A DNA stretch of 38,944 nucleotides from an uncultured Christensenella sp. (GTDB lineage Bacteria > Bacillota > Clostridia > Christensenellales > Borkfalkiaceae), in NCBI GenBank assembly GCA_949878495.1, contig CATLAR010000006.1:1-38944 (forward strand), read 5' to 3'. The stretch's first letter is position 1, and every line of letters starts with the position of its first letter. Of this stretch, positions 1 to 28,948 are shown piece after piece. The notes beneath the pieces are model-generated. The model did not search any database. It was not told the DNA's origin and saw only the letters and a list, made by a program, of their open reading frames with translations. The position numbers and the translations under genes are program-made.

Positions 1-2
1 TC

Positions 3-1580
3 CGCTACGTAAACGAACTTATCTGCGGTCGCGCCGCGGCTCTTGCAAAAAAATACGGCTTTTCGCAAGCCTCGGTGCAGCCCTCGGTTGTCTATCCCCA
101 GCACGTAAGCAAAAACTACGTAGCCGAGCTGGAAAGATTGATAACTCTGGCTTTCGACTCGCCGCCTTCGTCTGTTCTTTCGATGACCAAAGCGCTTTGC
201 GCGTACGCAATGCTCACCAAACGCATTAAAACGGGCGAGAGCGTGCTCATTTTCAATCTCGGCGAAGAACAGGTTTCCGTCGTCAAAACGTCGCTTTTGA
301 AAACGGGCGTGGCGGTGGACGGCGCGGACGGTCACAACGATCCCGCGTATCTCGGCGGCAACGACATAGACGACGCCGTCGCAAGGTTTCTCGAACGCGA
401 GATGGCGGGGCGCGAGAGTATGGGCAGACCGTCGAGCGGAGAGGACGGCTATCAGGCGGAAGGCTCTTTGAATTCCAAGCAGTATCTTTTCGTCAAGGAC
501 ATAAAGACGGCGAAGGTCATTTTCGGAATGCCGTCTTACGAGCGCGTTTTTAAGGACGGCGTACCCGTATGCGTTTCCCGCGATTTGTACGTTCAACGCA
601 GTATTACCCGCGAGCGGTTTTTGCAATGCACGGGCATTGCAGACGGCACGGGCGCGGCGAAACTCATTCTCGACTACGTTACCGAGGAGCTTGACCGTCC
701 CGTAAACGACGGCGTTAAAAAGATATTTTTCAGCGGCGGTCCCGTAGAAACGTACGGGCTTATCGACTTTTTGAAAAATGCTCTTGCAAAGCGCGTCAAG
801 GTTCTTACCTTCGAAAACCCCGTCGAGAGCTACGAGGGCGTTGAAAACGACGGCTTCAATATCCTCTCATACGAGGACGCGCTTTACGCTCCCGCGCTCG
901 GTTGCGCGCTTGCGGATATAAATAAACTCGACATACAGACGGTGCTCGCGCTCTCTTACGGGCTGAGGCTGTTCCTGTACGAGGGCGAGATACCCTATCT
1001 CGAACTGCTCGTAAACAAGGGCGACGTGTTGCCGCCCGAAGGTGCGGAGTTCTTCACGCCGCGACCTAAGGACAAAATCGGGCTTACAACCTCGCGCAAC
1101 AGCGTTAATTCCGCGCCGATGCATATTATGAGTACGGTGCTCAGCCGCGAGGATATAGCGGCGGGCAAGGACTCGCACCGTTTAGAATACGTCACGACTA
1201 GCGCGGGGCGTTGGTACCTGAGGGCGGACCCCAACAATAAGCGCGTTATGACCAAGCTGGTCAAATATGCGGGCGTGAAAATGCTCAACGGTTCGGAAAA
1301 CAAGAACGCGGGCGTTATTTATTACTACTACAAAAACACGCGGGTGCGGCTTATCGACAAGGTTTACGCCGTAATCGGCGTGCAGATAGACGGCGAAGGC
1401 CGCGCAAGACCGTACGCCGAAAACGACAGGGCACGGAACGGCAACGACACGGTTACCATTTTCTATCTATGGGATATTAAAAGGAACGGCAGGCTTATTC
1501 ACCGCGCGGGCGACAGGGAAGTAGTCTATAAGAAGGATATTAAGTTCGACTTCGACATAGACGAAATGCAGTTCAGTTAG
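3..1580 (+). CDS. Hsp70/DnaK-like ATPase, 5' end truncated by window edge
   Basis: Frame open from base 3 (RYVNELICGRAAALAKKYGF...). Hsp70/actin-fold motifs: phosphate-2-like 'GESVLIFNLGEEQVSVVKTSL', 'LGGNDIDDAVARFLE', adenosine-loop-like 'KKIFFSGGPVETYGLIDFLKNAL'. The listed ORF start at 75 is internal. Confidence 0.8.
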   Translation, partial: RYVNELICGRAAALAKKYGFSQASVQPSVVYPQHVSKNYVAELERLITLAFDSPPSSVLSMTKALCAYAMLTKRIKTGESVLIFNLGEEQVSVVKTSLLKTGVAVDGADGHNDPAYLGGNDIDDAVARFLEREMAGRESMGRPSSGEDGYQAEGSLNSKQYLFVKDIKTAKVIFGMPSYERVFKDGVPVCVSRDLYVQRSITRERFLQCTGIADGTGAAKLILDYVTEELDRPVNDGVKKIFFSGGPVETYGLIDFLKNALAKRVKVLTFENPVESYEGVENDGFNILSYEDALYAPALGCALADINKLDIQTVLALSYGLRLFLYEGEIPYLELLVNKGDVLPPEGAEFFTPRPKDKIGLTTSRNSVNSAPMHIMSTVLSREDIAAGKDSHRLEYVTTSAGRWYLRADPNNKRVMTKLVKYAGVKMLNGSENKNAGVIYYYYKNTRVRLIDKVYAVIGVQIDGEGRARPYAENDRARNGNDTVTIFYLWDIKRNGRLIHRAGDREVVYKKDIKFDFDIDEMQFS

Positions 1581-1617
1581 AAACCTCGTCAATCGGTTTC
1601 CCTTCGGGTGTAAGCCG

Positions 1618-1650
1618 AGTAGATGGTTCGAATCCACTTTGCCCTCCCCA
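1618..1650 (+). other. tRNA 3'-half-like fragment (T-loop and CCA-like end)
   Basis: 'GGTTCGAATCC' T-loop-like core followed by 'ACTTTGCCCTCCCCA'. Preceded by a hairpin 'GGTTTCCCTTCGGGTGTAAGCC' resembling a long variable arm. No 5' half is found. Confidence 0.3.
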
Positions 1651-1661
1651 ATGGAAGAGCG

Positions 1662-1729
1662 TTACCCCGCCTTGCCTTTCTGCTTAGGCGAAAGCGAAAA
1701 CGGACGGATGAGGGGTATAGGCGAGGTAA
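1662..1729. repeat. Intergenic hairpin/palindromic element
   Basis: TTACCCCGCC (1662-1671) pairs with GGCGAGGTAA (1720-1729) with one mismatch, in the gap before the SNF2 gene. Confidence 0.45.
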
Positions 1730-1759
1730 TAAACCCGAAATGCTAAGGAGTAACGGGAA

Positions 1760-4627
1760 ATGAAAGAAGAGAATTTCGAAATTAAATTTACCGACGGCGC
1801 GTTTACTGCCGACGAGCAGAAGAGCAATCTTCAGGGCAGAAAGCAGTTTACCCAAAAAGTAGCCGCCGCGGAAAAATACGTTGAATCGCTCGACAGTCAG
1901 GACGATTTCAGAAAACTCGTCATAGACCGCTCGTTCTATAAAAAGAACGCGGGGAGCAAGTACGGCATTCCCTTCGACAGAAGCATTCACTCCGCCGACG
2001 GAAGCGTTATTCTCACCGATCAGGAGCGCGCCGCCGAAAGGTTTTTGCGCGATCTGCGCGGGTTCGGTTTGCTTGCCGACGTAGTGGGAAGCGGTAAAAC
2101 GTACGAAGCGGGAGTAATTTTAAGCGAGCTTGCCGTGCGCGGCAAGGTGCGTTCGCTGCTTATCGTCGCGCCCGATCAGGTCTTTGAAAGCTGGGTCGGC
2201 GTGCTCGAAAATAAGTTCGGTTTGGGCAAAGGCGTTCTGTATCATGTCAAAAAGAGCGATAACCCGCCCTCGCTCAACGACGTTCTGAACGAAGTGGGTG
2301 TTACCAACGACGGCGGGTTTATGCGCACTAACCGTCCCGTAATAGTCGACGTGGACGTGTTTTCGCAGTGGCGTTACGCCGATAAATTTCTCGCCGACGT
2401 AGTAGTCGTGGACGAGGCGCATCACCTCAGCGAGGAAGCTGGCAAGTACGCGGGCGCAATGAAACTGCTGTCGGAGATGATGCAGACCAAGAAAAAAGCC
2501 GAGGCGACTTACTGTTTGCTTCTGACGGCGACGCCTCATTCGGGCAACCTTGAAAACATGTTCCGTCTGTGGTATTTCGTAAGGTGCAAGGGCGGCAACC
2601 CGTCCGACTTCGAGGTGAAGGACGACAAGGACAGGAGCAAACAGTACCGCGACGAGAAGCAGTACTATAAGGAATACATATGCCGCGGTGCGTCCAACGT
2701 CACGGAGTTTATAAGAAAAGTTAAGTATCAGGAAGTAGTTCAGAACTTCCCTTCCGAGTTCTACGACTATCTTAAAAAGACGGGCGAGGAAAAGACCTTC
2801 GACCGGAAATCCGAATACGACCGCTGTCTTTTGGCGGACGCGTTTCTGAACCTGCCCGAAAACGAGGAGCTTGCGTTCGGCGTTGAAAACAGCATTGCGC
2901 ACGCTTATCACAACGGCGTTTTATCCATTATGATAAGGCAGGGCAACGACCGCGGTAAGCGCAAAAAGATTTTCAACTATCTTTTTTATCCCCTTTCGCG
3001 CGGTCTTAAAAATATCGAATTCGCGGGTTTCGAGGGCGAAAAAATCACCGTCGATTTCGGCGATCTGAACGAGGCGGAGTTTCCCAAAATAAAGGGCAAA
3101 AAACTCTATCTCGACGAATACGTGCGGGGATATATCGAAGATAACGGCGGGCATCTCAAATTCGAGCAGGCTTACGCCGACGTAGTAAACCATCTTCTGG
3201 GCGCGCTTAAAGAAGCCGACCCTCAAAGCGAAGAAATTTTCAACAAGACCGGCTACGTCAATTATTACGCCAACAGAATCGCTTCCTGTCCCGCGGGTAT
3301 TGCGGAGAATACGCATATCGTGCCCGTAACGCTTTCGGGCGATAAGCTCGGCTACAAATTCGAGCTTGCGAAGTCCATTTTAAGGCGGCACGAGGGGCTG
3401 AGAGTGCTTGTGTTCTTCGATTACGAAGCCGGCAAAAACGATAAGTGTTGCGACGAGTTCTGCGCCGCGCTCAAAGCCGACGGCGAATTCGGCGACAGGG
3501 TGATAATAGGCGACGGCAAGTCGAATGTGGAAAAAATCGTAAACGCGTTCAATGCGCGCGAGGACGCTATACTCGTTGCGACCGACCCCAAGTTTACCGA
3601 GGGCGCGAACTTACAGGAATCGAACATTATCATTAACTATCAGGTTACGCCCGACCCGCTGGCGATGGACCAGCGCATAGGACGAATTTTCCGTCTGGGG
3701 CAGAAAAGCGACGTGTTTATTTACTCGCTCGCCGATATGAACAGACTCGAGGGTTTTGCGCTCGCGTATTTCTCGGCGATAGGGCTTTTGTCGAGTAACA
3801 GCGGCGACGCGACCATTCTCGCGGGCAGTAACTCCGACCAGATGGTGGCGGTGCGTTGCCGCGAATGCTCGCGCGTAAAACTGATGCCCCGTCAGGACTA
3901 CGAGGAAAAGAAGAGACGGCGTTCGAACGACCTCATTTGCCGCGCGACGCGCGCCTGCGAGGAGCTCAGCCCCGACGGCAAGGGTACGGAGATGACGGAA
4001 ATCACCGTCTACGACTTCAAATGCGACTGCTGCGGAACGGTGCTCACGCGCTCGGTTTCCGAGGGATATATGTGCCTTTCGCATGTTGCGGGCGGCGAAA
4101 AGGGCAAGATGTGCAACTCGGGCGAGCGGGGCGACAGGTCGGTTTATTGCCGCAAGATTTGCGCGCTGTCGCATTGTTCGAGATTTGAAAACGACAAACG
4201 CCTTGCGGGCAAGTGTCCCGCAATTAAAACTTACAGACAGAAACCCAACGTTTCGGACGCGGAACTTATGCGTATATGCGCAATGTGTACGAACGCGGCG
4301 TGCTGGGACGGCTGTAAGATAACGGGGTCCAATAAAGACCAGATTGCAAACTGTTCGGACTGCGAATACGCGGGGTGTTCGCCCGCGCCGCATTCCCTCG
4401 ATTTCGACGAGCGGTGGGAGGCTTATTGCCCTATGCCCTCGTGTAAGACCCGCCGTCCGCGCGGCAAACTGCGCCCGATAGTGGCAAGAACGTTCGCAAC
4501 GTTTATTAACGAACTCTGGAAGTTCAGCCACGACGGCGGCGAGAGTTTCTGCACCACGCTCGGCAACGAGGCGAACAGGGTTTCCGAAGTCAGGCGGATT
4601 TTGGAGATAAGCAACAAAAGCGAGTAA
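1760..4627 (+). CDS. SNF2-family (SF2) helicase with Cys-rich zinc-binding C-terminal region
   Basis: Motif I 'LLADVVGSGKTYEAGVIL', motif II 'VVVDEAHHLSE', motif III 'LLLTATPHSGN', motif V/VI 'ATDPKFTEGANLQESNIIINYQVTPDPLAMDQRIGRIFRLGQ'. Many CxxC pairs after about aa 695. RBS AAGGAG at 1745-1750. Confidence 0.9.
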   Translation: MKEENFEIKFTDGAFTADEQKSNLQGRKQFTQKVAAAEKYVESLDSQDDFRKLVIDRSFYKKNAGSKYGIPFDRSIHSADGSVILTDQERAAERFLRDLRGFGLLADVVGSGKTYEAGVILSELAVRGKVRSLLIVAPDQVFESWVGVLENKFGLGKGVLYHVKKSDNPPSLNDVLNEVGVTNDGGFMRTNRPVIVDVDVFSQWRYADKFLADVVVVDEAHHLSEEAGKYAGAMKLLSEMMQTKKKAEATYCLLLTATPHSGNLENMFRLWYFVRCKGGNPSDFEVKDDKDRSKQYRDEKQYYKEYICRGASNVTEFIRKVKYQEVVQNFPSEFYDYLKKTGEEKTFDRKSEYDRCLLADAFLNLPENEELAFGVENSIAHAYHNGVLSIMIRQGNDRGKRKKIFNYLFYPLSRGLKNIEFAGFEGEKITVDFGDLNEAEFPKIKGKKLYLDEYVRGYIEDNGGHLKFEQAYADVVNHLLGALKEADPQSEEIFNKTGYVNYYANRIASCPAGIAENTHIVPVTLSGDKLGYKFELAKSILRRHEGLRVLVFFDYEAGKNDKCCDEFCAALKADGEFGDRVIIGDGKSNVEKIVNAFNAREDAILVATDPKFTEGANLQESNIIINYQVTPDPLAMDQRIGRIFRLGQKSDVFIYSLADMNRLEGFALAYFSAIGLLSSNSGDATILAGSNSDQMVAVRCRECSRVKLMPRQDYEEKKRRRSNDLICRATRACEELSPDGKGTEMTEITVYDFKCDCCGTVLTRSVSEGYMCLSHVAGGEKGKMCNSGERGDRSVYCRKICALSHCSRFENDKRLAGKCPAIKTYRQKPNVSDAELMRICAMCTNAACWDGCKITGSNKDQIANCSDCEYAGCSPAPHSLDFDERWEAYCPMPSCKTRRPRGKLRPIVARTFATFINELWKFSHDGGESFCTTLGNEANRVSEVRRILEISNKSE

Positions 4628-4660
4628 TCAGACCGTCGTTTACGGCGTTAAAGGTGAATT

Positions 4661-6319
4661 ATGGCTAAAATCATAGTAGGTCAGGAGTACGCCAAAGAAT
4701 TCGAGAGTATCTGCGCCCTTTACGGGGGCGGGTTCCTCTCCTCCGACGTACATATAAAAAAGGCGCACGGCTCGGTCATTCAGACCCCGACGCATACATT
4801 CGAGTTCCGCGAAAAGGAGCACGGCGTCAACGGCTCGGGCGAGAACGAGGAACAGACGCTTGCGTTCAACAAGGACGGCGCAAGCTGGTTTTCCGCGCTC
4901 CGCGGCGAGAAGTTCGACAGCGGCAACGCCGATTGGAAACAGCTGATAATGGACGTCGCCGCCGATTATCACAAGCATTATTCGCTTATCGAATTCCGGC
5001 ACACGGCGTCCAAAGCCTCGTACGCCGAAGAACGCCGTCTGCGCGACAGGTTCAAAACGGGTTTTATAGACAGAGTATTCCCCGACGGCGTTTCGTTCAC
5101 GGTAGCCGAAAACAGGCGCACCGCGCCCGAAAATTATTACGCGGTGTCGATGCGCCTTGAAATCAACGGCGGCGGCGAAAGCGCGCCCGTGCTCGGAAAA
5201 CTCTATTTCCGCGACGGCGGCGACGGCAAACTTACCCCCGTATCCGCGCGGGAAGCCGAGCGCGTTCAGGTGTTTATCGAAAGCGCGGTGCCCGCGGAAA
5301 ACGACGTTGAAACCGCGGGGTTTATCGACGTCGCGCTCGTCGGTAAAGTATTCTCGGGGCTTGAAAAAACTTTCAGGGGCGGCAAGTTCGCAGACTATGC
5401 CGCGTTCAACGGCAAGTATAAACGGGAGATTAAAAACCTGCTGGCGCAGCTTGCCACCAGCGAGATAAAGTCCCTCGAATGCACGAACGTAAAAGTGCTC
5501 GGTATTTCGCACGTGGAATGGGAACGCTCGGTTTACGACGTTTATTACCGCGGGCGCAACGTTCTCGAACTCACCGCGGGCGTTAACGGCACGGTATCGC
5601 TGACCTGCTCCAACTGCGGTGAAAACGCCCTTCTCGTCGACGGAAACAGAGTGGTTTTCAAGGACGGCAACGCGGACGTGGAACTCAACTTCGAAAGGGA
5701 CGATCTGGGGCTTACCCCCAAACATATAGCGCAAATACGTGAGTCGGGCGAGATAAACGACCATCTGTTTACGGTGGCTTGCAAAGAAAACCCGAGAAAC
5801 CGCGACTGCACGCGCGTCGTGTGCGCTTCGCAGGCGATAAACGTCGCCGTCGGTATAAATCCCGACGGCTCGGAAATTTACGAGCGCAAATGCCGCGGCT
5901 GCCGTTATCCCGAAATTATCTTCACCGATATTTTTTCGGACGGGGACGGGGTCGGCAAATATACGCCGAGGCTGCAGTTCGCAGCGGATACGCTTTCGCT
6001 CGTCGACGTGCCCACCGTCAGGTGCCGCTGTTGCGGGCGGGAATTTACCGTTTCGGCAATGCCTGCAAATAAAATTTGTCATTTCTGTGCGCGCGACGAC
6101 AAGTCGTCCGCGGCTAAAAAACTTTACAGAAAATACGCGGGAATGCTTTCGCTCGGCGTAAGGCTGGCGCACCTTTTCGCAAAGAAATATTGCAAAGAAG
6201 AGGACAACGTCATTTTGTTCGAGCTGGGGCGCGACTGCTACGTTTTCGATAAGCTCAACTTTAAAGAACGCGGGTTTATCAAAAAGCCCGAAAAGGTTGT
6301 CAGAGGGGTGTTAAGATGA
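4661..6319 (+). CDS. Uncharacterized Cys-rich protein with several zinc-ribbon-like CxxC pairs
   Basis: Long ORF in the operon, overlapping the next gene by 4 nt. CxxC motifs: 'TCSNCGENA', 'RKCRGCRYP', 'VRCRCCGREF', 'KICHFCARDD'. Confidence 0.8.
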   Translation: MAKIIVGQEYAKEFESICALYGGGFLSSDVHIKKAHGSVIQTPTHTFEFREKEHGVNGSGENEEQTLAFNKDGASWFSALRGEKFDSGNADWKQLIMDVAADYHKHYSLIEFRHTASKASYAEERRLRDRFKTGFIDRVFPDGVSFTVAENRRTAPENYYAVSMRLEINGGGESAPVLGKLYFRDGGDGKLTPVSAREAERVQVFIESAVPAENDVETAGFIDVALVGKVFSGLEKTFRGGKFADYAAFNGKYKREIKNLLAQLATSEIKSLECTNVKVLGISHVEWERSVYDVYYRGRNVLELTAGVNGTVSLTCSNCGENALLVDGNRVVFKDGNADVELNFERDDLGLTPKHIAQIRESGEINDHLFTVACKENPRNRDCTRVVCASQAINVAVGINPDGSEIYERKCRGCRYPEIIFTDIFSDGDGVGKYTPRLQFAADTLSLVDVPTVRCRCCGREFTVSAMPANKICHFCARDDKSSAAKKLYRKYAGMLSLGVRLAHLFAKKYCKEEDNVILFELGRDCYVFDKLNFKERGFIKKPEKVVRGVLR

Positions 6320-9300
6320 AGAAAAGCAACAAGATATTCCTTTTAATATGCCTCGGTCTGGCGTTCGCCGTCGATTTTTCGGTTATGGTGTTTTTGCTCG
6401 TCGGCGGCGTTCAGGGGCAGTTCTGGCTGTTCCCCCTGTTTTTCGCGCTGTTCGACGCCGCGTTCATTTTACAGGCTATATTTTCAAACTTCCGCTTTAA
6501 ATATACCGTAGCGGAAATAATTTCTTATCTCGCGCTGTCAATCGTTGCGCTCTGCATAATGCTTTGGGCGGACGTTTTCCCAGGTGGCGAAACGTACTTT
6601 ACCGACGGCGCGGCGGCGCTATGGTTTGTCCTGCATATCGCGGGGTTAATTACTTCGCTTATCTGCTATCTGCGCGCGGCTGACTTTTTAAGGGGAAAAA
6701 TAGGCGCGGCGGTAGCCGCCCTGTTCATTGCGGCTTGCGGTGCGGGCGCGGGCTATTACGGCGTCAGCCTTGCCGCAAACGGCTTTCTTGGCCAGGGTCC
6801 CGAAACTTCGGTGCGTCCGCTTTCCTACGAGTACCTCGAAGAGTCCGACTCGTACGCGGTAAAACGCGTGCTGAACGGCAAGGGTACGAGCGTGACTGTT
6901 CCCGACGAGTTTAACGGCAAAAAAATAACCCGCATTTCTTCTTCTATTTTCTACGACGCGGGTATTACCGACGTAACGCTCGACTGCGCGCCTACGGTTG
7001 AGATCACAGATAATTTCGTCGCGAAAGAGGGCGTTACCATTCACACGCCCCGCGCAAATGCCGACGCGTTCAGAAGAAATTTCTTCGGCGGCAAGTATTA
7101 CTCGCTCGCCAACGCGGTCGCGCCTTACGACCTTGAAAACGACGAGGTTTTCGTGACTTTTTCATATGACGCGGAGGCTTTGGAGTCGGCTGGCGACAAG
7201 TTTTTGCCCACGTATATAGCAAAGAAGGGCACGAGGTTCGACCTCGGTTATTTCAAGGATATTCCCTATGCATTGCGCGCGGACAGACGCTCCGACGAGG
7301 ATCTGTTCTGGTGCTTGTCGTCAAACGGCGGCAAAATGCTTTCACCACTCGTACTTGAAAACGGCGACGGGTTAAACGGCGCGACTCTCAACGAAAACGC
7401 GCCTAAAATCAAAGTCGGGTTCGAGCGCGTTTACAAGGTCTATCCCGTTATGGACGAAATCTCGTCCACGTACGTGAACAACGACAAGAAGTATTTCCTT
7501 GCCGACGAGTTCGAATACTCCGTTGTAAACGGCGCTACTCTCGATTATAAGCTCACCGTTCCTCAATTCGCCGACGAAATCACGTCGAGGATTACCAGAA
7601 ATGGTTTTGATCTAGAATGGTGGTACGCCAACGGCAACCGCACGGCACAGTTTTTGCGTTGCGAATCGCTATCGGCGCTGCTCGAACGCGGACTTACGAC
7701 CGACGGTATTTCGTCAAGCCCCGACTTCGTTACGCTCGCGCCCCATTGGGAAATGGTCGCGCCGGACGTGATTATGACTACCGACTGTGCGGACAACGCC
7801 GTCGTTTACGGTGAAAATATTAACTTCTCCGTTGACGCCGTTTCGCTCGTCGACGGTGCGGTTATGACCTATTATTGGGAGCGCAAGGACAGTTTCGGGC
7901 AGTTCCTTACGATAGACAACAAGACGGACGGCTATTCCAAATATAACTTCCTCGAAAGCGAGGCGGGCACGTATTACTGCACCGTTACGGTGACGGCGGA
8001 CTGTACTTCGCTTTCTTCGAACCGCACCGGCTCGGTTGAAGTCAAACTCAACCCCAGACCTTTAACCGTTGAATGGACTTATCCGCAAAACGACGTTTAC
8101 GACGGCAATTATAAACAGATTACCTGTGAAATCGTCGACGGTGTGATAAACAACGACAACGTAAGCCTTTTTTACAACGAGTCCAACAGAGTAAAATACG
8201 CGGGCAGGCATTATGTTTCCGTAGGGCTTGCCGTGGGCGGCACGGGCAGGTACACTATCGCTAACGAAAGCTCGGTTTCTTTCGAGATTAAAAAAGCGCC
8301 GTTATATATCGCGTTCTCTGAAGTTGAAACCGTTTACAACGGTTACGACCAAGCCCCGGAGTATACCGTGACAGGCGAGGTTGAAACCGACGTCGGCGGC
8401 GTTCGGTTTAACCCCGTTTCCGCCAAAAATTCGGCGGGCGTTTACGATTACGCGCTGGTTATCGGCACGGATACGATATCTTCCTGCTATTACATTGAGG
8501 GTTGTACTTCGCCCGTCGAATGCAGCTTTACGGACAACCGCATAGTAACCAAGTTTACTATCAAACCTTACGGGGTAGACGTCAGCTGGAGCGTGGTGGG
8601 CGTGAATACGGGCACTTCGGACAGATTTACTTACGACGGCAAGTCGCACACGGTAACCGCGACGGCAAAGGGCGTTTCGGGTACTAATATAATTGTAGAC
8701 GTAACCGTTCCCGTAGTCAGAGACGCTGGAGATTACGCGATAACCGCATCCTGCCGCAGTACCAACTACACCGTTAAGAGCGGCGGAGAAAAGACGGTTA
8801 TTATAGATAAAAAGACGGTAACGCCGACTTACGGCAGCCTTAAACTCATTTATAACGGTGGGTTGCAGACTCCCGAAGCGTATGTTTACGGCGTGGGAAC
8901 CGACCCTTCTACCATTCCCGTAAACGGCACGGGCGGCGCGAAGAACGTAGGTACGTATACTTTCACGGCTACGACCCCCGCAAACGCCAATTACGAGCTT
9001 ACGGGTGAAAGCAGCAGACAATTTACTATTGCGCCGTATACCGTGCGTATAAACTGGTCGGATAATTACGTGATTTACGACGGCAAACCGCATTTGCCCA
9101 AAGCCTCCGCGCAGGGGCTTGGCAGCGACGGCGAGCTGTCCTTCAAAGTGGATTTTATTCAGGGCGGTTCGCCCGTAAATTCGGGCAATTATGCCTGCCG
9201 CGGAACTATAATCGACGGCGATAAATATCTTGCGGCAAATTACGTCATAGACGGCAATTACGGCGATTTGTCGCAACTCGTAATCGACAGGGCTACCCTC

Positions 9301-9600: not shown

Positions 9601-9601
9601 C

Positions 9602-9680
9602 CCCATCTCATCAGTCCCTTACGGGACAGCCGAGATTCCTCTTGCCCTCGCATTGAGGATAGGGGCAGGGGTGAGGTGCT
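9602..9680. repeat. Intergenic nested hairpin element
   Basis: ATCTC(9605-9609)...GAGAT(9632-9636) encloses GTCCC(9614-9618)-TTAC-GGGAC(9623-9627). A second hairpin-prone segment follows (CCTC gcatt GAGG). Confidence 0.45.
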
Positions 9681-9728
9681 TATATGATTTTACTTTAAAC
9701 GGAGAGGCGTGCAAAAGGAGTTTAGTTT

Positions 9729-10853: not shown

Positions 10854-12328
10854 TGAACGAAAAAATCGAGAGAATAATCGCGGCGTGTACGCGTAACGGC
10901 GTGCCGCTCAATAAAAACTTCAACGTTACGTACCTTTCCACTCACGGCTATTACGAGGGACCGCAACAGCTTGCGGGCAAGGCTCTCGACGATCTGGACA
11001 GACTGTGCCGCCTCGGTATTAACGCGGGGTTCGACAGCCAGCTCAAATCTGCGATAGATAAGCTGTCGGATATGGTAATAGGACTTACAAACGTTAAACA
11101 GGGCGACGTGCGCGAGCTTGCCAAAGCCGACGGACAGCGCAACAAAATATTGGAGAACGTGCGCGAGGCGAGCTATCCAAGCCTCGACGTAACCAAGACG
11201 GTAAGTATGTACGTTGCAACTTCGGTCGAGGCGATAGACACCATAATATCGCTGTCGAGCGAGGACGAGATTTTCTCGACCGTAGACAAAAGGCAGATAG
11301 AATATCTCAATCAAAGCAAACAGAAGCTCGGCGAGATAAACGCCGCGCTGTTCAAGGTTATGGAAACGGGCAGCGTTGCGGCGAAAGCCAACGCCGAGCG
11401 CGCGTGCGAGCTTATCCGCAAATGGCGGCTGGACTGCTCGCGGTTTATGTGCACTTCGCGTTCGGTCGGCTATCTCGACGACGCGATAGAAGTAATCAAC
11501 GAATGGGGCAAACAGTTCGTCGCGCCTCTAAAGCGCGACAAGGCAAAGGAATTGCCTGTGTTTATCCGCGATGAAATGTCGATAATCGCAGACAGCCGCG
11601 CTGGACTGGAAACGCTTAGCGTGTTTAACGCGAGAATAGAGGCTCGCCGTCAGGAACTTGATAAACAGCAGAGCGAAATAGATAAGGAAAGACAGACCTG
11701 CGAAGGCTTGAAAGCGCAGCTTTCCGCGCTCGAAAACAGAAAAAAAGAGATTGCCCGCGAGCTAATGAACACGGGCGACAAGAACAAGGCTAACCGTGAC
11801 GTGGCGGAAGTAAGGCGGCAGTCGGACGCGCTCGAAGCCGATATCAAGGCGATAGAGGGCAACGGCAGGCTCGCCAAAAAGGAAAAGGATTTACGCAACC
11901 GCAGAAACGTTACCGTTTCCATTAAGCATATCTGCGATATGCTCACGGACAACAAGAGCGACCTCGTGTTCCTTGCCAAAGTATTACAGCATGTTGATTT
12001 CAACTCGCTCGTAGGCGTTATGACGGGCAGAACGGGGGATCTGGAAGAGGCTTCCAACAGCATTGCGCAAATCCGCGTGCGTGTGGAAAACCTCTACAAC
12101 GCGTACGTTATCACGGGCACGGGGCTTGAAGAGGACCAGCGCGCCGTCGACAGCGTAATGCTCGACGAAATGATTTACGAGGAGCAGCCGCAGACCGAGC
12201 TTAACGCCGAGGGCGTGGACGCGGAGCTTGCCGAGCTTATGAAAGCTATGGAAAGCGGCGAAGAGAAAGAGGAAGAAACGCGCGAGGCAGTGCGCAGGAT
12301 AGTACCCCTCGGCGACGACGATAAATAA
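10853..12328 (+). CDS. Coiled-coil protein with acidic amphipathic C-terminal tail
   Basis: Starts at the stop of the preceding gene (TAATG). Long heptad-like region 'IEARRQELDKQQSEIDKERQTCEGLKAQLSALENRKKEIARELMN'. C-terminal 'EGVDAELAELMKAMESGEEKEEETREAVRRIVPLGDDDK'. Confidence 0.8.
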   Translation: MNEKIERIIAACTRNGVPLNKNFNVTYLSTHGYYEGPQQLAGKALDDLDRLCRLGINAGFDSQLKSAIDKLSDMVIGLTNVKQGDVRELAKADGQRNKILENVREASYPSLDVTKTVSMYVATSVEAIDTIISLSSEDEIFSTVDKRQIEYLNQSKQKLGEINAALFKVMETGSVAAKANAERACELIRKWRLDCSRFMCTSRSVGYLDDAIEVINEWGKQFVAPLKRDKAKELPVFIRDEMSIIADSRAGLETLSVFNARIEARRQELDKQQSEIDKERQTCEGLKAQLSALENRKKEIARELMNTGDKNKANRDVAEVRRQSDALEADIKAIEGNGRLAKKEKDLRNRRNVTVSIKHICDMLTDNKSDLVFLAKVLQHVDFNSLVGVMTGRTGDLEEASNSIAQIRVRVENLYNAYVITGTGLEEDQRAVDSVMLDEMIYEEQPQTELNAEGVDAELAELMKAMESGEEKEEETREAVRRIVPLGDDDK

Positions 12329-14238
12329 TGGCATTCAAGGACGATTTAGAGAGAATCAACACTCTCTATTACAATTCGACGGCTGTTGCGGAGCTTAAAA
12401 AGGGGCTGGACGAGCTGGATAAAATGCTGTCGGGCGGGTGGCTTAACGCCGCCAACAGCGAGAACGCCGAAGCGCTCTATTGCCGCATTTTCGTCAAAAT
12501 AAAGTTGTTGAAGTATCTTTCGGGGTATTCCGACGGCGAGCGCGGGGAGCTGGAAGAATATATTCTTTCGGAGTACCGTAACGCCGAAAAAAAGGGTTAT
12601 AAAAAGACCTGCGCCGTTATGGACGGCGCGAAAACGCTTATAAAGTTCGTGCACGGCGTAGTTTCGTTTGTCGCCGATGCGGACGAAACGCTGAGAGCGG
12701 GCGTTACGGGCGCGCAGTGCGACGCGGTTATCTCCAGCCTCGAAGCTATGAAGGGCGACGTCGAACGCGCGGAGATAACTTCACCGTTCGGCGACGGCGT
12801 AAAGTTTACCGACGTAAAAGAGGGGCTTATCCGTCGGCTTGAGGGGGGCATTTCCGCCGCCCAAAGGCGCAAGAGCGAGGAGCGCGCGGGCAAGGTAGGG
12901 CATTTTCTAAGAAAAATTTCCGACAAATACCTGCTTTACGAATATTATCCGTTGCCCGACTACGACGAAGGCGGCGGCAAGTACACCTGCGTGGTGTGCA
13001 CGCCGTTTATCGAAGAGGCGCGCCTTTACGCCGCCCGCGCGGTTGCCGACGGCGTTGCCGTTTACGAGGCCGACGCGACGGTTTTTGAGGGCTATACCGA
13101 CGATTACGTCGCCGACTTTTTTAACCACGTAACCGAGCTGAAAGCGGGGCTTATACTCACCAACGCCGAAAAGCTGGGCGAAGGTAAGAAAAAACTGCTG
13201 TATAGGGGCGCAATGCTCGCGGGTAAGCGGGGCGTGAACGTGTTCATTCACGATGACGACGGCGACGGCAGGGAATACGAAAAATGCGTTGAATATTCCG
13301 CCGACGACGGGCGGCTAAGCCCTCGCGACGTGGGAATAAGCTATATTTCTATGCCCTATTTCAAGGACGTGTGCGCCGAGTTCGAGGCAAAGGGACTCAT
13401 AGCCGGCGGCGCGGACTACGACGGGCTGAAAGAAATGGCGTTTATGGGCTTTATCGGGCTTAATCGGGTAGTCGCCGACTTTATCGCGGGCGCGGATTGG
13501 CGCAAGACGGGCAAAAAACTTTCTGCGGCGAACACCGCGGCGGCGCGTAGATACCTGCAAACGCTGAAAAATTCTTACCTTTTCATAGACTCGGGCTGGG
13601 GCGATTTCTCGTCGTGCATTATCAAAAAGGAACGCACGCACGAGGGATTCGACTACGACGGCGTGAGGGATATAGACCTTGAAAACGTGCGAAAGATAGT
13701 AGAAAGCGAGCATTCCGTTTTCGCAAAATGCGGAATGATAGCGCGCTACTGCACGCTCGGCGGCGGTGACAAGACCGATTGGGAGCTGGTCCCCCGCGAG
13801 GAAATGCTCAGCCGCGTTACGCTGGCGACAAGGCTCGTTTTCCGCATAATGCGGGTGGAAACTTCGCCCGAGGTGGAAATCCTCGACGCGCTCGACAACC
13901 CCACTGCGGGCGGGCTGTGCTGTAATAACGGCAAACTTATTCAATACAAATCCGACTGCTGTAAGAATTGGAGCTGGATGGTGGACGCAATCGTTCACGA
14001 AAGTTTCCACGCGTTGCAGGCTAAACTTCGCCTGGGCGGGTGGTCGGAATGGTATTACGAGCAGATGGGCATTACGCGCGGCAGGGTGGAAAGGTGGACT
14101 TTCACCAACAATATTTACGACGGAAACACGAGTTCCAAACTTTACAAAGTGCACATCGTCGAAGCCGACGCGCGCGCGTTCGAAATCGACTGCGACGACG
14201 GGCGCAACTACGCCTGGAACACGATAGATTTTAATTAA
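12328..14238 (+). CDS. Uncharacterized protein with C-terminal zincin-like metallopeptidase motif (HExxH)
   Basis: 'VDAIVHESFHALQAKL' (HESFH, nt ~13996-14010), followed by 'HIVEADARAFEIDCDDG', a possible third-ligand Glu (ExxxA/EAxxF-type). Start overlaps the preceding stop. Confidence 0.75.
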   Translation: MAFKDDLERINTLYYNSTAVAELKKGLDELDKMLSGGWLNAANSENAEALYCRIFVKIKLLKYLSGYSDGERGELEEYILSEYRNAEKKGYKKTCAVMDGAKTLIKFVHGVVSFVADADETLRAGVTGAQCDAVISSLEAMKGDVERAEITSPFGDGVKFTDVKEGLIRRLEGGISAAQRRKSEERAGKVGHFLRKISDKYLLYEYYPLPDYDEGGGKYTCVVCTPFIEEARLYAARAVADGVAVYEADATVFEGYTDDYVADFFNHVTELKAGLILTNAEKLGEGKKKLLYRGAMLAGKRGVNVFIHDDDGDGREYEKCVEYSADDGRLSPRDVGISYISMPYFKDVCAEFEAKGLIAGGADYDGLKEMAFMGFIGLNRVVADFIAGADWRKTGKKLSAANTAAARRYLQTLKNSYLFIDSGWGDFSSCIIKKERTHEGFDYDGVRDIDLENVRKIVESEHSVFAKCGMIARYCTLGGGDKTDWELVPREEMLSRVTLATRLVFRIMRVETSPEVEILDALDNPTAGGLCCNNGKLIQYKSDCCKNWSWMVDAIVHESFHALQAKLRLGGWSEWYYEQMGITRGRVERWTFTNNIYDGNTSSKLYKVHIVEADARAFEIDCDDGRNYAWNTIDFN

Positions 14239-14252
14239 AGAGGGGAAAAGTT

Positions 14253-17200
14253 ATGGCGGATTATCTCGACGGGTTTATAAAGGAGCTTTTGCATCTTGAC
14301 GACGTCCGCACCAACAGACTTATAGACGCGGGTAGCGACGGCGACAAAATCAAAGGCTACCGTCTGTCGTCGGAGGGCGGGCTTTCGTGCGCGAAAATGC
14401 TCTGCGCTATAAAAAACGGCGTGGGCAAAGTCAGCAACCGCACCGTGCTGAAAGACAGCGCGCTCGTGCGCACGAACGTGGATAATCCCGCGGTGGAAAA
14501 GTGGCTTTGGCGCGACCTTTCGGGGTCGAGCGATCCCAAAGCTCTAGACGCGTTTATTACCGACGCGTATAAAGCGCTCAATTTAAAGGGCAACAACCCG
14601 CTGTTTCTGGGGCTTGGCGCGCTCGAATGGGAAGTCGCCGTGTCCGACGAGATTAAAAAGGTCTGCTCGCCCCTTCTGATATTCCCCATTAAACTCATAC
14701 GCGGCACCGCAACGAGTTCGGTGGAAATCGAGTTCGTCGACGACGACGCATATTTCAACCCCTGTCTTATCGAAAGACTCAAAAGGGATATGACGGGCTA
14801 CGTTTCGGGTAACTTCCCCTCGCCCAACGGCGGAACGGACTTCGACGAGCCGATAGACCTTGATAAACTCGATTTAAGTTATTTCGACAAGGTCGACGCG
14901 CACGTTAAAGAATGCGCCGAGGGCGCGGGCGGCGCGTTCGCGTTCAACCGCGACGCGCTTATTATAGCGCAATACAGCCACGCCGACGTTTGTATGTACT
15001 ACGACGTTCGCCGCAACCGCGAAAAGATAGACTCGCACCCCCTTATCCGCAGGATATTCGGGGAGAAAGTCGACCTTCCGCCCGTGGACGAGAGCGCGGG
15101 TGAACCGCGTTTCGTTCTGCCCAAAGACAGCGTTCAGGAGGACATTATCCGCAGGATAGTACGGGGGCAATCGCTCATCGTCAAGGGACCTCCGGGCACT
15201 GGTAAAACGCTGACAATCGCAAATATAATCGCCGCTCTGCTTGCCAGAGGGAAGAAGGTTATTTTCGCTTCGAAAAAGCTTTCCGCGCTTGCAGAGGTCA
15301 ACGCAAAACTGCCCGAAAATTTAAGAAAGTTCGTAATGCTTCTGGACTACGAAACCGAGCAGAAAGCCGCGGCGGTAAACCCCGCCGACGTGAAGCGTTC
15401 GTTTAAAGCGCTTGTAAAAGAGCGTTCGGAATACCATTTCGACGGCGCGGCTTCAAGCGGCTACGAAAAGGCGGTGCGTGACTGCGCGGACGCCGTTCTG
15501 GAAATAAACGAATATTTCAAGGACGTTTTCGCAAGCGGCTATTACGACGTTATCGACTCATATTACAAGAGCAACCTGCCCGCCTTGCCTTTCGCAACTT
15601 CCGACGAGGTCGCAAAGGTGTCCGCGAGCGAGTACAACGGGCTTCTGAGCGAGGTCGAGGACGCGGGCAAGTTCTGGAATATAATGACCGACGGCAAAGG
15701 CGGAATCGCGGAATGTCCGTGGTTCGGAGTCGGAGATTTAAAGGATACCGAGGGCGCGTTAGCCCTTAACTCCGCCATATGCGGGGGTATAAGCAAAATA
15801 AATGCCGCTTTGCAAGAACTTGGACTCGACGAAGCGGACGAGCTTCGGCTGGGCGATCTGTATCTGACGGCGGGCGGGAACGTGCTTTCGCGCACAGACG
15901 TCGAAAAACTGCTTGCGGCCAAACTGCCAGTAGATTACGCGGAAATTACCAAAGTTCTCAACGCGTACGAAGAGCGCGCCGAAAACGCGCCCGCGGGGTT
16001 TGCGTTCAAAGACGGCGGCGCGGCTTGTTTTAACGATTTAGCCGTCGCAGCGGAAGAATTGAAAAAATACGGCGGGGATACGCCGCTCACCAACGGGCGG
16101 ATAAAATTGCTCGGCGACCACGCGTATTTGTTTTTCGTCAACGGCGAGCCGTATACTTCGCTGCAGTTTGAAAGACTTTGCGAGTTGGTGAAGAGCGTTC
16201 GGGAATACGAGGATAAGGCGAAAGAGCGCGAGTTCGATTGTCTTGCCATGCTCGATAAACTCGAAAGCGGAGACTACGCCGAGGCGCTTAAAACCTATGC
16301 GAGAATTTCGCCCTACGCTTCAAACGGCAAAAAGAAAATAGGCTTTTTCGACTTCAAGGGCAAAAAGGCATATAAATATCTGCTTACCAAAACTTCCCGC
16401 AGAGAGCCAAAACTCAAGGATATTGCGGGGGCAATCGTCGCTTTAAGGGACTTCGAGGATAACGCGGAAGAAGCGCGCGTGATAAAAGGGTTTATCGGGC
16501 GCGTCTTAGGAGGCAGAATGCTTACCGACGACGAGCTTGCCTGCGCTTATTTCGTGGCGGATACCTGCCGCGAAAAAGCCGACGCGTTCGGTTTCGTGGG
16601 CGCGGCAACGAAAGCCTGTTCCGTACTCAAACTTTGCGCGGAAGAATGCTCTACTCCGCATTCGTTCACCGTTGACGAGCTTTTAAAAAGCCGCGAAGTT
16701 TACCTTCTGCGCGCCGAGCTTAAACGACTCGTCGAGAGCATTTGCCAAAGCGCGCAAATTTCGGATTCGGGCGACGAAATAGTCGCCGCCAGATCGTTCG
16801 CAACCGTTTTACGCGCAAAGGGTTTGAAGCCCTTCAAAAACCAAACCGAAAAGCTTGTCGAATACTTCGAAAAAATAAAAGAGCTCGGCGCGGCGTTCGC
16901 CGAAGAAACGGGGCTTTGCGCAAAGAAAATGCGCACTTTCGGCGTGACTTATTTCGAAAGCGTTTACACCGTAAACCCTTGGAAAGTGACCGTGGCGGGA
17001 CTTAAACGCTTTGCCTCGCAAGCCGAAAACCGCGCCGTTTTAAGCGCGGCGGCGGGCTACCATAAGATTACCGCGGATAATTCCGTGCTTTCTCTCGCCG
17101 TCTTTTTCGCTTACCTTGAAAAGGGCGAAGTATTCGTGGAAAGCGGCAGATTCGGGGAGCTGTTCGAGCATTCGTTCAGCAAATTGACCCTTGACTATGC

Positions 17201-18755
17201 TTTAACGAGGCTGGGTAAACGCCGCAACGGACTTGGTAAAAACGCCCAGCTTGCCCTCGACAAATTCGAGCGCGCGGAGGGCGAAATGCTCAAATGCAAC
17301 GCCGGTTTAATCGAAAATCTGTGTATGTCGAGAATAGACGCCGACGACCCCGATTTCGCGTTCCTTAACGCCGACCGCGGCGCGCCGCGGTCGCTTAGGT
17401 ATCTGTTCAAAACTCAGGCGGAGGCAATCGTCAAGCTCAAACGCTGTTTCATTTTATCTCCGTCCACGGCGAGCGTTCTGTTCCGACCCGAGGCGTTCTC
17501 GGACTTCGACGTCGTTATCGTGGACGAGGCGAGCCAGCTCGAACCCGTAAATCTTCTGTCCGTGCTCGTGCGCGCAAAACAATGCGTGCTCGTCGGCGAC
17601 GAGTTCCAGATGCCGCCGCTCACTCATTTCAAAGTCAAAAACAAGGGCAGGATAGACGATATCGACAGCGAGCTCGCGCTCGACAGCGATATATCGGCGC
17701 TCAGCCTCGCACTGCATAACGAGGCGTTCGAGTCCCGCGAGCTTTTGTGCCATTACCGAAGCAACACCGAGGCGCTGATAGCGTTCTCGCAGCGCGAATT
17801 TTATCCGTATATGCGCACCTTCCCCGCGGCTTTGCCCTTTGCGGACGGGCTGGGGTTCGAGGACGTGTATACGCCCGAGGGTTGCAGCGAGGGCGGCGTG
17901 AACGAAACAGAAGCGCAAAAAGCCGTTGAAAAACTTGCCGAACACTTTGAAAAGTATTATAATGAGGATACGGGCGTGCTTTCGCGCTCGGTCGGCGTTG
18001 TTGCTTTCGGCGAAGCCCAGCTTGCCAAAATAACTTCGCTCGTTCAGAAAAACGCCGCGCTTAACGCGAAAATCGAACGCGCGATAGAAAAATTCGACGA
18101 CCTGCCCGAAAAACTCGTCTTTTTCAGGACGATAGAAAGCGTTCAGGGACAGGAAACCGACCATCTCATTTTGTCGATAACTTACGGGCGCGACAAAAAC
18201 GGCAACGTCCGCCTTATTTTCGGCGAACTCAACCGCGACGCTCTCGGCAAAAATATCTTCAACGTAGCGGTAACTCGCGCGCAGAGCTTCGTTACGGTTA
18301 TACACTCGCTCACCGCCGAGCAGATTTCGGCTAACGCGCGGATAAAGTTCATAGGCGACTATCTCGCGCTCGTCAGAAAGTATTCCGACGGCGGGCGCGA
18401 CAGATTCCTGTCCACCCTTCCCGAAAAGGGCGCGAACTTTATTTCAAGCGTTTGCGACTATCTCGCCGAATGCGGAATCACGCGCGAGCGCATCGTCGTA
18501 GGTTACGGCGTGACGGACGGATCCGTCAAAATTCCCGTCGCGGTGCTTTCGAAGGACCTGACCCGTGCCGAACTGGGTATCTGGTGCGAAACGCCCGTGC
18601 TCAAAAAGTACGATTATCTCGACTATAACGTCCGTTACGTGCGCTCGCTTATCGGCCGCGGCTGGAATATTTACAGAATTTCCGCGCACGAGTGGTACGA
18701 CAACGGCAAGTTCGAGAAAGACGGGCTGAAAAAAGTAATTTCAAAACTCATTTAA
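14253..18755 (+). CDS. Large SF1 (Upf1/Dna2-like) helicase with DUF4011-like N-terminus and degenerate Vsr/REase-like C-terminus
   Basis: Motif I 'QSLIVKGPPGTGKTLTIANIIAALLARGKKVIFASKK', motif II 'DVVIVDEASQLEPVNLL', motif III 'CVLVGDEFQMPPLT', 'ESVQGQETDHLILSITYG', motif VI 'NVAVTRAQSFVTVIHS'. About 780 aa between motifs I and II. N-terminal 'NPLFLGLGALEWEVA...SPLLIFPIKLIR'. C-terminal 'LIGRGWNIYRISAHEWYDN'. Confidence 0.88.
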   Translation: MADYLDGFIKELLHLDDVRTNRLIDAGSDGDKIKGYRLSSEGGLSCAKMLCAIKNGVGKVSNRTVLKDSALVRTNVDNPAVEKWLWRDLSGSSDPKALDAFITDAYKALNLKGNNPLFLGLGALEWEVAVSDEIKKVCSPLLIFPIKLIRGTATSSVEIEFVDDDAYFNPCLIERLKRDMTGYVSGNFPSPNGGTDFDEPIDLDKLDLSYFDKVDAHVKECAEGAGGAFAFNRDALIIAQYSHADVCMYYDVRRNREKIDSHPLIRRIFGEKVDLPPVDESAGEPRFVLPKDSVQEDIIRRIVRGQSLIVKGPPGTGKTLTIANIIAALLARGKKVIFASKKLSALAEVNAKLPENLRKFVMLLDYETEQKAAAVNPADVKRSFKALVKERSEYHFDGAASSGYEKAVRDCADAVLEINEYFKDVFASGYYDVIDSYYKSNLPALPFATSDEVAKVSASEYNGLLSEVEDAGKFWNIMTDGKGGIAECPWFGVGDLKDTEGALALNSAICGGISKINAALQELGLDEADELRLGDLYLTAGGNVLSRTDVEKLLAAKLPVDYAEITKVLNAYEERAENAPAGFAFKDGGAACFNDLAVAAEELKKYGGDTPLTNGRIKLLGDHAYLFFVNGEPYTSLQFERLCELVKSVREYEDKAKEREFDCLAMLDKLESGDYAEALKTYARISPYASNGKKKIGFFDFKGKKAYKYLLTKTSRREPKLKDIAGAIVALRDFEDNAEEARVIKGFIGRVLGGRMLTDDELACAYFVADTCREKADAFGFVGAATKACSVLKLCAEECSTPHSFTVDELLKSREVYLLRAELKRLVESICQSAQISDSGDEIVAARSFATVLRAKGLKPFKNQTEKLVEYFEKIKELGAAFAEETGLCAKKMRTFGVTYFESVYTVNPWKVTVAGLKRFASQAENRAVLSAAAGYHKITADNSVLSLAVFFAYLEKGEVFVESGRFGELFEHSFSKLTLDYALTRLGKRRNGLGKNAQLALDKFERAEGEMLKCNAGLIENLCMSRIDADDPDFAFLNADRGAPRSLRYLFKTQAEAIVKLKRCFILSPSTASVLFRPEAFSDFDVVIVDEASQLEPVNLLSVLVRAKQCVLVGDEFQMPPLTHFKVKNKGRIDDIDSELALDSDISALSLALHNEAFESRELLCHYRSNTEALIAFSQREFYPYMRTFPAALPFADGLGFEDVYTPEGCSEGGVNETEAQKAVEKLAEHFEKYYNEDTGVLSRSVGVVAFGEAQLAKITSLVQKNAALNAKIERAIEKFDDLPEKLVFFRTIESVQGQETDHLILSITYGRDKNGNVRLIFGELNRDALGKNIFNVAVTRAQSFVTVIHSLTAEQISANARIKFIGDYLALVRKYSDGGRDRFLSTLPEKGANFISSVCDYLAECGITRERIVVGYGVTDGSVKIPVAVLSKDLTRAELGIWCETPVLKKYDYLDYNVRYVRSLIGRGWNIYRISAHEWYDNGKFEKDGLKKVISKLI

Positions 18756-18767
18756 GGAGAGAATATA

Positions 18768-19532
18768 ATGCCAAGCAACGAAGTAAAACAGATTGACCCC
18801 TTCGACAAGGAAGAAAAAGCCGTCAAGGAACAGCTTGACAAAATCACCAAGGCGAGGGAACAGCAGAGGTACGAAAAATCCGTAGAGGATTCCAAAAGGA
18901 ACTTCAAGGCGAAAAAGGATAAGCTCGCCGACCGCGCAGCCGACTTTTTGCTTAAATACGGCAAGGACGATTACCGCACGCAGATAATGATAACCTTCCT
19001 TGACGTGGCGTTGCAGATGGAGGACGCAATCAACCTCACCCACGATATGGGAATGGCTATGGGCTGTATAACCGAAGCTATCGGGTGTATGGACGATATT
19101 CTCAAGATAAACGGCTTGCAGATACAGAGCACGCTCGCCGTCAACTACGGTTTCTTTGCGCGTTGGAAGCGTAAACGCGAACTTAACAAGGCCGTGAGAA
19201 ACAACGCGGGCAGAATGAAACAGATTTGCGATACGCTTGTCGGTAATCAGGAAATGGCTCAGGCAATCGTCAATTCGCTGAGGAAATCGAGCGTGAAAAT
19301 GCAGAATATGATGCAGAAGAACGCCGAAAAACAGCGCAAAATCGAGAAAAAAGTCAACCCTGCCGCCGCGGGTAAACCGTCCGCCGCGGAATCTATGGTT
19401 ACGGAGCTTGCGCGTTCCCGCGCTGGCGAAGATGCTTCGGGCGGAAGCGTAAACGGCGGAGTTACGGGCGGTACTACCGCGCCCGACGCGCCCGCAAGCG
19501 GCTCGGGCACCGTAGATATAAGCGATATTTAA
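18768..19532 (+). CDS. Basic all-helical coiled-coil protein, candidate ESCRT-III/Snf7-like substrate of the adjacent Vps4-like ATPase
   Basis: 254 aa, Lys/Arg/Glu-rich helices, central Met/Gly/Ala-rich 'MEDAINLTHDMGMAMGCITEAIGCMDDILKINGLQIQSTL', low-complexity Gly/Ala/Pro tail. Immediately upstream of the AAA gene. ORF is certain; ESCRT-III assignment is tentative. Confidence 0.5.
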   Translation: MPSNEVKQIDPFDKEEKAVKEQLDKITKAREQQRYEKSVEDSKRNFKAKKDKLADRAADFLLKYGKDDYRTQIMITFLDVALQMEDAINLTHDMGMAMGCITEAIGCMDDILKINGLQIQSTLAVNYGFFARWKRKRELNKAVRNNAGRMKQICDTLVGNQEMAQAIVNSLRKSSVKMQNMMQKNAEKQRKIEKKVNPAAAGKPSAAESMVTELARSRAGEDASGGSVNGGVTGGTTAPDAPASGSGTVDISDI

Positions 19533-19544
19533 CGGGGGTGGGAT

Positions 19545-20699
19545 ATGTCCGGTTTCGGAAAAAAAGGACCTTCTAATCCCGACGGACAGTCGGTTGAAGA
19601 GCTTGAAAAACAGTACGCGGCGACGGTAGATAAAATCCGCGCCATACTCGCGGGCAGAAAGGACAAGCGCGATTTGAGCAACGCGGACAAGTCCAAACTG
19701 CGCACGGAGTATTTGCGCGCGTCGCAGCTCGCGCAAAAACTTTCCACCCGACACACCGATAACGACAAGGTGGAAAAGTACAAGCAGGACGCCGTAAAAC
19801 TGTCCGCCCGAGCAACGGAGTACGGCTCGGCGATAAACAGCAAAATACCCTCAACGACGTTCGACGACGTGAAGGGACTTGACGAAGTAAAGAAAATAGT
19901 CAAAAGTTTTATTTTCATTGCACAGAACCCCGAAATTATAAAGCATTATAAGATCGAGGGCGGGCTGGGAATGCTTATGTACGGCGCTCCCGGCACGGGT
20001 AAAACGATGTTTGCGGAAGCCATTGCAAACGCTCTGCGGCTGCCCCTTTTCGTCGTTACCCCCGCGGATATATTCAAATCTTACGTGGGTGAGTCGGAAG
20101 CGGCGGTACGCCAGATTTTCGACGAAATCGACGCTTGCCCCGACGGCGCGATACTTTTCGTAGACGAATGCGAGTCTATTTTTTCGCGGCGCACGAGCGA
20201 CACCAAGGACTATAAAGCGGCGGTCACGACCGAGCTTTTACAGCGCATTAACGGCTTCGGCGTAAACGGCAGTAAGCGAATAATAATCGCGGCGACCAAC
20301 CGTCCCGACGTAATCGACCCCGCGTACCTGCGTTTCAAGAGATTTTCGCACCGCGTGCACGTCACGCCGCCCGACCTGAACGCCAAACGCGCGATTATCG
20401 AGAGCAAGCTCAAGGGCATAGAACTTTCGGGAATTACCACCGAAGAAATTCTGGAAATGACGGAAAATTATACGGCGGCAAAAATGCCTATCGGCACCGT
20501 CAGCGTGAAAACGGCGTACTATTCGGCGGCGGATATATGCGGAATAATAGAGGAAACGTGCCGTCTTGCGCTTGAAAAAATACAGGAAGCGCAGTCGAAA
20601 ATCCCCATTCCGCTTACGCGGGAAATGTTTGAAACTTCGTTCAAAAAACTCAGGCCGAGCATCAGCGCGGAGCTTCTCAAAGAATACAACGACTTTTAA
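19545..20699 (+). CDS. Vps4/katanin-like classical AAA+ ATPase with MIT-like N-terminal helical region
   Basis: Walker A 'MYGAPGTGKTMFAEAIA', pore loop 'FKSYVGESEAAVRQIF', Walker B 'AILFVDECES', sensor 1 'IIIAATNRPDVIDPAYLRFKRF', sensor 2 region 'YSAADICGIIEETCRLAL', C-terminal 'EMFETSFKKLRPSISAELLKEYNDF' typical of the Vps4/katanin/Cdc48 clade. The N-terminal ~90 aa is predicted helical by eye. Confidence 0.82.
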   Translation: MSGFGKKGPSNPDGQSVEELEKQYAATVDKIRAILAGRKDKRDLSNADKSKLRTEYLRASQLAQKLSTRHTDNDKVEKYKQDAVKLSARATEYGSAINSKIPSTTFDDVKGLDEVKKIVKSFIFIAQNPEIIKHYKIEGGLGMLMYGAPGTGKTMFAEAIANALRLPLFVVTPADIFKSYVGESEAAVRQIFDEIDACPDGAILFVDECESIFSRRTSDTKDYKAAVTTELLQRINGFGVNGSKRIIIAATNRPDVIDPAYLRFKRFSHRVHVTPPDLNAKRAIIESKLKGIELSGITTEEILEMTENYTAAKMPIGTVSVKTAYYSAADICGIIEETCRLALEKIQEAQSKIPIPLTREMFETSFKKLRPSISAELLKEYNDF

Positions 20700-20707
20700 G
20701 AAAATTC

Positions 20708-20738
20708 AAAAGCTCGGTGGCGACGCCCCCGAGCTTTT
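20708..20738. terminator. Hairpin terminator between the AAA operon and convergent yitT gene
   Basis: AAAAGCTCGG (20708-20717) and CCGAGCTTTT (20729-20738), perfect 10-bp stem. Confidence 0.85.
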
Positions 20739-21673: not shown

Positions 21674-21710
21674 AATTTTCCCAAAATAGCCGAGATTCCC
21701 GTAAGAACTC

Positions 21711-28946: not shown

Positions 28947-28948
28947 TA

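Follow-up and report, generated by a model that had tools for sequence, protein, structure and literature searches.

In archaea and eukaryotes, the ATPase Vps4 disassembles the membrane-cutting filaments of the endosomal sorting complex required for transport (ESCRT). According to a survey from 2024, ESCRT components occur in archaea and not in bacteria (PMC10936438), and another survey notes that Vps4 has been transferred to bacteria without Snf7, snf7 being displaced (PMC11237479). Here we describe a ten-gene cassette (g1 to g10), encoding a predicted Vps4-type ATPase together with DNA motors, on a contig of an uncultured Christensenella sp. (CATLAR010000006.1; 38,944 nucleotides, referred to as the window). 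The window is the entire contig C6 of a genome of 1.21 Mb, which is 92% complete. A preliminary description, made from the sequence alone, had proposed an undescribed operon with several nucleoside triphosphatases. This was borne out by searches with g10, g9 and g3 and subsequent mapping of the neighbourhoods: beyond the window's own genome, 36 sampled genomes carry the homologs together in the same gene order, gene for gene, several copies being cut by contig ends.

We found no described system matching the ten-gene set, neither in PADLOC, NCBIfam and Pfam nor in the open-access literature, which is not the whole literature. The preliminary description would have been refuted by scattered homologs or by agreement with a characterised system, and neither was observed. 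Individual proteins resemble parts of known systems. As in ESCRT-III/Vps4 (CdvBC), a classical AAA domain follows an MIT-type domain in g10, and the adjacent helical protein g9 carries a short C-terminal motif; however, g9 is not sequence-homologous, its tail differs from the MIM1 and MIM2 motifs, there are eight additional genes and the host is a bacterium. The IetAS (IteA) antiphage system likewise has a Vps4/spastin-like AAA protein (IetA model 4.5e-35 for g10) and a peptidase gene in the operon. The IetAS partner is a serine protease, whereas g7 of the cassette is a predicted zincin; furthermore, g10 reaches 108 bits compared to the NCBIfam IteA cut-off of 510, and the operon comprises ten genes. 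Like the antiphage helicases Hhe and ProA, g8 combines a DUF4011 helicase with an MTES_1575 domain, but its scores (370 vs 1500 and 270 vs 2000 bits) are below the equivalog cut-offs, a nuclease residue is lost and the gene sits within an operon. The helicase core of g2 resembles the SNF2 ATPases DrmD of DISARM and BrxH of BREX, but with 113 vs 610 bits, with a Cys-rich C-terminus and without a methylase or other DISARM or BREX genes in the operon. The parts seen of the papers on NTP-dependent conflict systems and CoCoNuTs (PMC7159879, PMC11090510) describe mixed chaperone-type NTPases, Hsp70-like parts and inactivated nuclease domains as well; they contain no such gene set, and no MoxR/vWA, McrBC or HEPN was recognised in our operon.

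The ten genes are a true operon. They form a series of open reading frames (ORFs) tiled across positions 3-20699 of the plus strand, the start and stop overlaps at 6316, 10853 and 12328 were confirmed, and a strong terminator (Table 1) ends the run, all as previously described. In the homologous loci the median gap of every junction is at most 17 bp, except for the g6-g9 junction of loci without g7 and g8 (20 bp). The window's g1-g2 gap (179 bp) and g4-g5 gap (128 bp) are longer than elsewhere and may therefore contain internal promoters. Directly upstream of several full-length g1 homologs we found a sigma-A-like promoter, e.g. TTGACA-17-TATAAT in genome G403 (read by eye). The ratio of nonsynonymous to synonymous rates was 0.02-0.35 in all genes tested, a set that excluded g7; nonsynonymous rates are thus far below synonymous ones, indicating functional proteins under purifying selection. 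Within the g1-g2 gap (1581-1745) there is a single-copy stretch resembling the 3' half of a tRNA; Rfam gave no match to a functional RNA in this gap. The g4-g5 gap (9600-9715) contains short repeats, which partially match about 20 other sites in the genome.

The system was detected with g3 in 32 of the 396 genomes sampled from the order. In the phylum sample, g3 found it in one genome out of 399, which was the window's own, and the two convincing cases of the class sample belong to the same order, too. It is thus almost absent from the phylum outside the order. A g3 match in G1131 was rejected as a separate short zinc protein, probably found by chance. The complete form g1-g10 is the common one. 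Nine genomes of family f6 lack exactly g7 and g8, and G152, probably also G350, holds g1-g5 only; the unit is accordingly a g1-g5 core with an optional g7-g8 pair. Further variants have altered g6 and g9 genes (G452), two g7 (G155), two g9 (G368) or a permuted order. The last applies to G434 (L167, G434:C65); here g6 is fused to FtsK, an RNA ligase gene separates g1 from g2, and the locus also encodes a CvpA-family membrane protein.

Flanking genes vary between the genomes carrying the cassette. In a maximum-likelihood tree of g2, well-supported branches force four changes for family f1, and the window's copy groups beside copies of family f32 (support 100/99). Since the tree crosses family lines, it indicates that the ten-gene block moves between gut Clostridia as a unit by horizontal transfer. 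Between G403 and G499, g6-g9 share 43-61% identity compared to 73-85% for g1-g3, g5 and g10, suggesting that the g6-g9 block is exchanged or evolves faster. No match to the cassette was obtained in plasmids, phages or IMG/VR viral contigs, and carriage on such elements was rejected on these grounds. Conserved gene for gene, apparently passed on horizontally and not listed in current catalogues, the unit is a strong candidate for a novel system.

The preliminary description had called g10 a classical AAA remodeler. This holds, and besides a pore-loop-type motif (KSYVGESE) the protein has an N-domain with a predicted MIT fold. Among the best PDB matches of this domain were the MIT domains of yeast Vps4 (template modelling score 0.76-0.78, root mean square deviation 2.3-2.6) and archaeal Vps4 (0.77), with Foldseek E-values of about 0.8-1, the level expected for a small helical domain; Pfam gave no MIT match for g10. 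We classify g10 as a Vps4-type ATPase from the similarity of the modelled fold and from the location of the N-domain ahead of the AAA domain. Structures were predicted from at most three sequences each, which limits the g9 model, a low-confidence model of long helices with a predicted local distance difference test (pLDDT) value of 60. Its top PDB matches were Vipp1 filaments with a non-significant E-value of 0.1, and BAR proteins were also among the top matches. Pfam and profile comparisons led us to reject g9 as a Snf7 or PspA family member at sequence level; g9 is ESCRT-III-like by architecture and context alone.

The g9 C-terminus follows the pattern [I/Y/F][D/S/G]D[I/V], behind a poorly conserved linker, in all 27 sequences, compared to none of 166 flanking proteins. 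A looser pattern matched 27 of 28 g9 frames and seven g6 C-termini, six of them convincing; among other ORFs it matched 12 of 2519. The g6 protein of G434 runs into the FtsK motor (PF01580, 4e-47) and ends with IADIDDITR, a tail of the g9 type. We read the tail shared by g9 and some g6 proteins as a putative docking site for g10; that these short tails recruit g10 is a testable claim.

The order contains a second locus type with a comparable pair. In G097, which lacks the ten-gene system, the gene for an AAA protein with 35% identity to g10 has in its neighbourhood genes for TIR proteins, a trypsin-like protease and a protein of 194 aa. Homologs of this 194-aa protein are present in 13 of 151 genomes and lie near an AAA gene of the g10 type at all seven mapped loci. 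G241 has tandem copies of this locus, one of the 194-aa-type genes being fused to FtsK. The best match of the Snf7 model in G231 and G241 is a gene of this type, below the cut-off (E-values 0.008 and 0.09). The constant pairing, the FtsK fusion and these best matches support a partnership of the Vps4 type within the order, with a recurrent link to FtsK motors. These loci and the ten-gene system are relevant to the published opinion that bacteria have no ESCRT components other than PspA.

Table 1. Features of the ten-gene operon and of the second locus type. Positions without a contig or locus number refer to the window.
Feature	Position	Strand	Remarks
g1, Hsp70/actin-like (ASKHA) ATPase, tentative	3..1580	+	5'-truncated by contig end, 525 of ~660 aa
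g2, SNF2-type superfamily 2 ATPase with Cys-rich C-terminal region	1760..4627	+	PF00176, PF00271
g2, multi-zinc region, residues 700-895	3857..4444	+	~20 conserved Cys
g3, zinc-binding protein, family without Pfam match	4661..6319	+	>10 invariant Cys/His
g4, membrane protein, five N-terminal transmembrane segments	6316..9600	+	large Ig/MBG-like predicted extracellular region, fast-evolving
g5, zinc ribbon and Sel1/TPR-like repeats	9729..10853	+	C3, C6, C23, C26 invariant
g6, coiled-coil protein	10853..12328	+	FtsK-motor fusion in G434
g7, predicted gluzincin-type metallopeptidase	12328..14238	+	optional, lost together with g8
g7, HExxH zinc motif H557, E558, H561; third ligand candidate E612	13996..14010	+	invariant in 16/16
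g8, DUF4011-type superfamily 1 (SF1) helicase, optional	14253..18755	+	PF13086, PF13087, PF13195; Walker motifs intact
g8, C-terminal MTES_1575 (Vsr-like) nuclease domain, predicted inactive	18438..18734	+	PF18741 1.4e-5
g9, helical protein, proposed g10 client/polymer subunit	18768..19532	+	long helices predicted
g9, C-terminal tail DISDI	19515..19529	+	tail form conserved, 27/27 homologs
g10, Vps4-type classical AAA ATPase (predicted)	19545..20699	+	PF00004 2.8e-32, weak Vps4_C
g10, MIT-like three-helix domain, residues 17-98	19593..19838	+	AlphaFold pLDDT ~95 in helices
Intrinsic terminator	20708-20738	+	hairpin -19.4 kcal/mol, z -5
Snf7-like/Vps4 locus	L026:397-6285 (G097:C22); also L188-L193		194-aa Snf7-like protein with MIM1-like tail, Vps4-type AAA, zinc-ribbon/TIR proteins, trypsin-like protease

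Most assignments of the preliminary description to the remaining proteins were confirmed. The two helicases belong to different superfamilies, g2 with all SNF2 motifs intact and conserved (GSGKT, DEAH, SATPHSG, QRIGRiFRLGQ) and g8 with the intact Walker motifs of an SF1/DUF4011 protein. The putative metallopeptidase g7 keeps its HExxH...E pattern, the downstream E included, in all 16 homologs. Active-site motifs of the SNF2, SF1, AAA and zincin proteins are thus intact, as judged, with good support, from conserved residues. Invariant Cys sets are present in g2, g3 and g5. The polytopic surface protein g4 contains MBG repeats in some homologs, and its long outer region, the fastest-evolving part of the operon, changes three to several times faster than the neighbour genes. 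No convincing Pfam family was found for g3, g6, g7 and g9, and PDB sequence searches with these four yielded nothing meaningful.

The weakest call concerns g1. Full-length homologs (about 650-690 aa) have conserved ASKHA-type motifs (DLGSDT, GGnD.D, lsGG..ET, ED..ApAvG), which agree with the Hsp70-like ATPase proposed before. Pfam HSP70, on the other hand, reaches 0.008 in only 4 of 17 members, the HSP70/BcrAD matches being weak and confined to few homologs, and the window's g1 is incomplete because the contig starts inside the gene.

In the MTES_1575 domain of g8, the acidic residue (D) of the IDVAV motif is replaced by P in 17 of 17 sequences, whereas it is intact in six paralogs; cleavage is therefore unlikely and the domain is predicted to be inactive. 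A restriction-type nuclease effector in g8 was rejected for the loss of this residue. MTES_1575 paralogs of g8 that retain it occur across the window's genus, e.g. a helicase of about 1,880 aa with intact nuclease residues (G000:C9:3692-3964 and relatives, L135-L146). Further likely copies of g8 are located in the genus on G1276:C18 and G1273:C12.

The cassette is best read as encoding a mobile, membrane-linked multi-ATPase machine in which g10 would remodel tail-bearing partners. g9, together with g6, would form helical assemblies near the membrane, anchored via g4; g10 would dock on the tails and dismantle the assemblies, in the manner of Vps4 acting on ESCRT-III. The constant gene order, the MIT fold, the shared tail and the second locus type speak for this reading. 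The DNA motors g2 and g8, plus FtsK in one lineage, would work on DNA at this site, g1, g3 and g5 might be sensing or assembly parts, and g7 may cleave a partner or target. Among defence models, defence helicases are the nearest to g2 and g8, and IetA is the nearest to g10. Because of this likeness, the patchy transfer and the fast-evolving surface part, we tentatively favour, at somewhat less than even confidence, that the machine halts phage or plasmid DNA at the envelope as it invades. It is rather doubtful that it acts as a bacterial ESCRT-like machine, in which a Vps4-type ATPase, a tail-bearing helical polymer and double-stranded DNA motors seal, cut or segregate membrane and DNA where foreign DNA enters. 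If true, Vps4-type ATPases and tail-bearing clients would join bacterial biology together with DNA motors. Several observations weigh against the favoured reading. The 94 flanking proteins are mostly housekeeping with few defence matches, which does not support a location in defence islands, and in genus g88 the cassette seems to have been inherited vertically, staying at one site near rpsF-ssb. A methylase, a toxin or an active nuclease is missing from the operon, the nuclease domain of g8 looking dead, and g7 and g8 are dispensable. As for g9, Pfam Snf7 is absent in 27 of 27 members, its profile scores no better against PspA than the reversed control, and the confidence of its structure model is low.

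Alternatively, the operon might encode an envelope-remodelling or surface-assembly machine without any role against invaders, with g9 and g10 as an ESCRT- or PSP-like repair or budding pair and g4 as the displayed product. Relatives of the g10 AAA protein remodel membranes, the top-ranking folds for g9 belong to Vipp1 and BAR proteins, g4 is present in every copy of complete sequence, and no match to PspA was obtained in the window's genome. This explanation nevertheless appears unlikely to us, as it does not account for the FtsK fusion or for the presence of two or three DNA-type motors, and the patchy distribution with transfer speaks against it.

The same motors, with the FtsK fusion and RNA ligase of G434 and a recombinase gene upstream of the genes in G152, would suit a DNA transfer or maintenance module by which an integrative element moves or segregates its own DNA. 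We consider this improbable: integrase, relaxase and replication families are missing among the 25 commonest Pfam families of the 94 flank proteins, and plasmids, phages and viral contigs gave no match. Of the functions considered in the preliminary description (defence, envelope remodelling, proteostasis), the last is now the least likely. A proteostasis or stress operon centred on the Hsp70-like protein, the AAA protein and the peptidase would account for the chaperone-type ATPases and the zincin motif, and in G152 the g1-g5 block precedes hrcA-grpE-dnaK-dnaJ; yet the peptidase g7 is missing in nine genomes, the SNF2 and DUF4011 helicases are unexplained and the gene set is not universal in the order, making such a role very improbable.

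Straight after the operon terminator, the window contains two tandem genes for YitT-family membrane proteins (20756-22784); one YitT-like gene is likewise located 3' of the operon in G121. Further on (27540-30457), downstream of glycan genes, two adjacent Sel1-repeat-like proteins of 468 and 502 aa are encoded.

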